Source: Elusimicrobium sp. An273
GTDB lineage: Bacteria > Elusimicrobiota > Elusimicrobia > Elusimicrobiales > Elusimicrobiaceae
Direction: 5' to 3'
Assembly: GCF_002159705.1 (NCBI RefSeq)
Contig: NZ_NFJD01000004.1
Span: 62,001-126,000, forward strand
Length of the DNA: 64,000 nucleotides
Shown here: in pieces, positions 56,119-56,706 of the stretch
Layout of the letters: each line of letters starts with the position of its first letter
Numbering within the stretch: position 1 is the first letter of the stretch
Position numbers and translations under genes: made by a program
Notes under the pieces: model-generated
What the model was told of the DNA's origin: nothing
Database searches by the model: none
What the model saw: the letters and a program-made list of their open reading frames with translations, nothing else

Positions 56119-56706
56119 TTAATCAATCAACCAGCAATCGCCGGACACATAACTGCAAGTGGTCGGCTCCTTGCCGCCACTTAAAATTTTGCATAAGTTT
56201 TTGCTTTTTTCATCAGTATTGTCCATAGCATTGCATTTAATTTGGAATTTTTTATCCAATCCCGATTCGCCAGCCCAATGCACCGGCAGCATAAGCCGAA
56301 TATAATACGGCCCTTTTTTATAATACTTATAGGCATGGGCCGTGCCGGTAGCAATAAGAGATTTGTTGCCCATCATAATTTTAGAGTCGCCGTTTACGCA
56401 GCTGCCGTCTTCTTTTTTGCCCAGTACACACCCCAACGTAGCACCGGCCGGAAGTTGCAAGTCCGGATAATTGTTTAAATCCTGATCGCTGGTGGATCCG
56501 CCCTCCATTAAATATAACTGGCGGGCGCGGTAAATTTCGTACATAATATCACGCGTCTGCACGAACTCCGCTTTGGCCACGGCTTTTTCATATTGCGGAA
56601 GCGCAATGGCCGCCAAAATACCAATAATTTAAACAACAACTAACAGCTCTATCAGCGTAAATCCGCTGTGTTTCCCCAAGGGGAAAAAGGAATAAATGTT
56701 TTTCAT
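56119..56706 (-). pseudogene. Type IV pilin gene interrupted by an in-frame stop
   Basis: Read from ATG 56706, codons give a normal prepilin leader (ending GKHSG) and [11 protein letters not shown], then TAA at codon 26 (56631-56629), then in the same frame [23 protein letters not shown] and a full pilin head domain with six cysteines to 56119. The usual residue at this point is Leu, so one base change TTA to TAA would explain it. Frame and spacing are otherwise intact and the rest is undecayed, which suggests a recent mutation, read-through, or a sequencing error. A second ATG lies one codon upstream (56709). Confidence 0.88.

Follow-up and report, generated by a model that had tools for sequence, protein, structure and literature searches.

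The minus strand of the 64 kb window (the whole stretch of DNA analysed here) carries a complete 195-codon prepilin frame that, on translation, is interrupted by one in-frame TAA. This locus is very probably a nonsense pseudogene of ordinary kind and recent origin, belonging to a large and redundant family of type IV pilins; its DNA descends from a prepilin gene, yet no pilin should result from it. This reading draws on the occurrence of only one stop in 195 codons with the start, leader, six cysteines, C-terminal end and terminator all retained, and on the open syntenic orthologues, the evidence of purifying selection, the uniqueness of the stop, the absence of a stop-reading tRNA from the genome and the presence of two other broken pilins.

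The TAA is the sole internal stop of the frame, in agreement with the initial annotation of a nearly intact pilin gene with a single stop codon, and falls at mature position 11 of the pilin (Table 1). The frame retains a class III leader, the GFTLIE motif (Glu at +5), the full head with all six head cysteines and the C-terminal end GDCWLID. However, the hydrophobic N-terminal helix and the head do not lie in one open frame, as the stop at codon 26 intervenes. With X placed at the stop, the full sequence matches both PF07963 (N_methyl; 31 bits, cut-off 21.2) and TIGR02532 (32.7 bits, cut-off 16.3). Mechanical ORF calling yields only the fragment starting at TTG 56616, as had been anticipated, and this headless product has no family match in Pfam or NCBIfam. 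Elsewhere in the window, a small ORF (62183–62473, minus strand) has a hydrophobic N-terminus resembling that of pilins (GMGLLGLLISVIIMAVLLSLVLKQY) but without the Glu normally present at +5, and its PF07963 score falls just under the cut-off.

Table 1. Features of the pilin locus and its immediate neighbours, in window coordinates.
Feature	Position	Strand	Basis or remark
Type IV prepilin pseudogene, 195 codons plus stop	56119..56706	-	ATG start at 56706, terminal TAA at 56119-56121; translation, PF07963/TIGR02532, orthologues
Premature TAA, codon 26	56629..56631	-	Leu in 3/3 orthologues and most paralogues
Prepilin leader, 15 residues, ending at Gly before Phe+1	56662..56706	-	Translation; PF07963/TIGR02532
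Headless ORF from TTG, 165 aa, as seen by an ORF caller	56119..56616	-	First part of the membrane-spanning helix missing
Hairpin resembling an intrinsic terminator (12 pairs followed by a T-run)	56088..56115	-	Directly 3' of the pilin gene; strong
Endonuclease III-like gene (HhH-GPD, PF00730), upstream neighbour	56743..57513	-	Same order in sister genomes
Family 8 glycosyltransferase (PF01501), downstream convergent neighbour	55129..56079	+	Profile match, sister-genome comparison

Intact orthologues are present in three other species of the genus (genomes G077, G067 and G034), with 74, 72 and 69% identity, respectively, over nearly the full length. Since this level of identity is to open-frame orthologues in three genomes, the broken frame is not a chance one. 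A plasmid or phage origin was considered as well, and no match was obtained. All three orthologues have frames that are open throughout and a leucine at the position of the stop, and they share the six head cysteines and the C-terminus with the broken gene. The four genes also occupy the same place with the same neighbours: upstream of the orthologues, wherever the fetched stretch extends that far, lies an endonuclease III-like gene, and downstream an OadB-like transporter gene, which in G067 comes after a glycosyltransferase gene as it does in the window. In G067 the glycosyltransferase homologue adjoins the pilin; in G034 it does not. The listed ORF start of the endonuclease III-like neighbour in the window probably lies too far upstream. 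The leaders preceding FTLIE comprise about 45 residues in the orthologues L031, L097 and L098, which is long for prepilins, compared with 15 in the window copy.

Comparison of the window copy with the three orthologues gives dN/dS values of 0.10–0.17 (dN 0.19–0.25, dS 1.5–2.0; Nei–Gojobori with Jukes–Cantor), where dS is near saturation, so that the values are approximate and the dating is loose. The corresponding values among the intact orthologues are similar (0.11–0.17), with no excess of amino-acid change on the window lineage visible in the pairwise dN/dS, and no second lesion was found in the 195-codon frame. The low dN/dS, the lack of an excess on the window lineage and the absence of another lesion together indicate that the gene is one on which purifying selection acted until recently. 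A random substitution in this gene generates a stop in about 5% of cases, so the next stop would be expected only after about 20 neutral substitutions (0.034 per site); this expectation and the single lesion support a recent event, as does the otherwise undecayed state of the gene that the initial annotation had pointed out.

The genome (1.5 Mb in 14 contigs) contains 46 pilin-like places, and the same query gives between 53 and 121 pilin matches in each of five relatives from the same genus, in keeping with the numerous paralogues that had been predicted. A small genome rich in pilins is also consistent with Elusimicrobium, the lineage that had been named as an example. At the position of the stop, the commonest leucine codons in the pilins of this genome are TTA and then TTG, both one step from a stop codon, consistent with the proposed origin of the lesion by a single TTA-to-TAA substitution. 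Two further pilins in the genome are broken, at C2:206531-206671 (L026) and C4:210080-210184 (L089). In each of them, what looks like the deletion of a single base follows shortly on the conserved N-terminus, and the frame beyond it is intact. Thus, about three of the 46 pilins have recently been inactivated, and the two additional cases indicate that this family loses members to single lesions repeatedly, though at a low level.

The strand distribution of the pilin genes was also noted. In G000, the genome that contains the window, 42 of the 46 pilin genes are on the minus strand and the sampled GC skew is nearly all negative, whereas in G071 the pilin strand switches where the GC skew changes sign. 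Across C1–C4 of G000 and C1–C2 of G071 (loci L102–L121), almost all pilin genes lie on one strand per replication arm, unlike the other ORFs in the window, which lie on both strands. The pattern suggests that single pilin genes are strongly biased towards the leading strand.

The stop might represent the reversible off state of a phase-like switch, as the initial annotation had suggested, or the gene might be a silent recombination donor resembling pilS of Neisseria, and the large family with its conserved N-terminus and the three copies turned off in this genome by one lesion each are compatible with either. However, no repeat tract is present at the stop, and the longest homopolymers in the gene are runs of five to six A or T, none of them at the site. 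Comparison of N-termini at the DNA level by a motif ending in (I/V)G gave 2383 matches in 61 genomes of the genus, of which 2382 have a sense codon at this position (YTN, encoding Leu or Phe) and one, the window copy itself, has a stop; no recurrence at the codon 26 position was found in these genomes. Silent pilS copies of Neisseria are 5'-truncated, whereas the window copy has its own start and terminator. DNA similarity to the fetched paralogues is about 80–85% over fewer than 100 bases at the N-terminus, and the longest exact run in common with any of them is 20 bases, which argues against shared head blocks. Switching or donation is therefore highly improbable. The papers retrieved on pilin phase variation with premature stops concern Neisseria, Moraxella and Acinetobacter, and those retrieved for Elusimicrobium together with pilins or type IV pili give no hint, in title or abstract, of dealing with the present genes. 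That the TAA is suppressed or read through in a programmed way, giving full-length pilin at a low level, is scarcely credible. The frame is open and constrained on both sides of the stop, as such a mechanism would have it, but the orthologues have leucine here, so read-through would have had to arise anew in a single lineage. Moreover, none of the 47 tRNA places in the genome has the anticodon tta, cta or tca, so that the suppressor tRNA put forward for checking finds no support; the remaining ORFs of the window tile as usual under table 11, which speaks against a reassigned stop; RNA structure around the stop is not unusual relative to shuffled sequences (z = 0.63); and no Rfam family matches near it. 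Given the unique stop and the lack of a stop-reading tRNA, of RNA structure or an Rfam element and of a repeat tract, read-through, suppression and classical phase switching are all unsupported.

The stop could instead stem from an error in sequencing or assembly, or be the allele of a minority captured by a metagenome assembly, with the gene intact in most cells. The genome was read from the assembly alone and is divided among 14 contigs, the gene is otherwise perfect and constrained, two other pilins are likewise broken by single lesions and an assembler might be misled by the many paralogues with similar N-termini. A second genome collection, in which close records may be missing, was scanned by protein and by DNA pattern, and no further copy of the locus came up. 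Nevertheless, the lesion is a substitution rather than a homopolymer indel, and exact matches to paralogues of 20 bases or fewer mean that this base is not an expected product of short-read misassembly. When ORFs are tiled, the rest of the genes in the window look unbroken, pointing to a low base error rate; this argues against a generally error-rich assembly, although not against an error at this particular base. An error or minority allele is thus considered unlikely. (A candidate broken gene at 27125–27768 was rejected, as it proved to be an open aldo/keto reductase-like frame masked in the tiling by an overlapping ORF.) A more speculative proposal, likewise unlikely, is that pilin genes of the genus alternate between an intact state and one with a single lesion, in a fast birth-and-death turnover that tunes the pilus repertoire of each strain, with the stop being a standing polymorphism of the species.

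In the preferred reading as a recent nonsense pseudogene, a single base substitution would have converted a leucine codon in the hydrophobic N-terminal helix to TAA, and the stop would be real in cells. Translation would then end after a 25-residue peptide (the leader and ten further residues) and no pilin subunit would be made. Any restart at TTG 56616 would give a product without the N-terminal helix, which for that reason presumably could not be built into a pilus. The loss is probably neutral, because dozens of other pilins remain. On its own the locus means little, being one more recent pseudogene, for which annotation would list a headless fragment in place of a pilin. The roughly three in 46 freshly broken pilins, however, provide a handle on the speed of turnover of an unusually large pilin family.

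The window copy has in common with type IV prepilins (TIGR02532/PF07963, with a GFxxxE N-terminus) the leader, Gly-1, Phe+1 and Glu+5, the hydrophobic helix and the cysteine-bearing head, but the TAA interrupts it at mature position 11, and a full subunit is not expected. It differs from its three orthologues in that it alone has a stop and in that their leaders are about 30 residues longer. Nothing distinctive sets it apart from the nonsense pseudogenes of bacterial multigene surface-protein families, with which it shares a single lesion, an otherwise intact frame and redundant paralogues.
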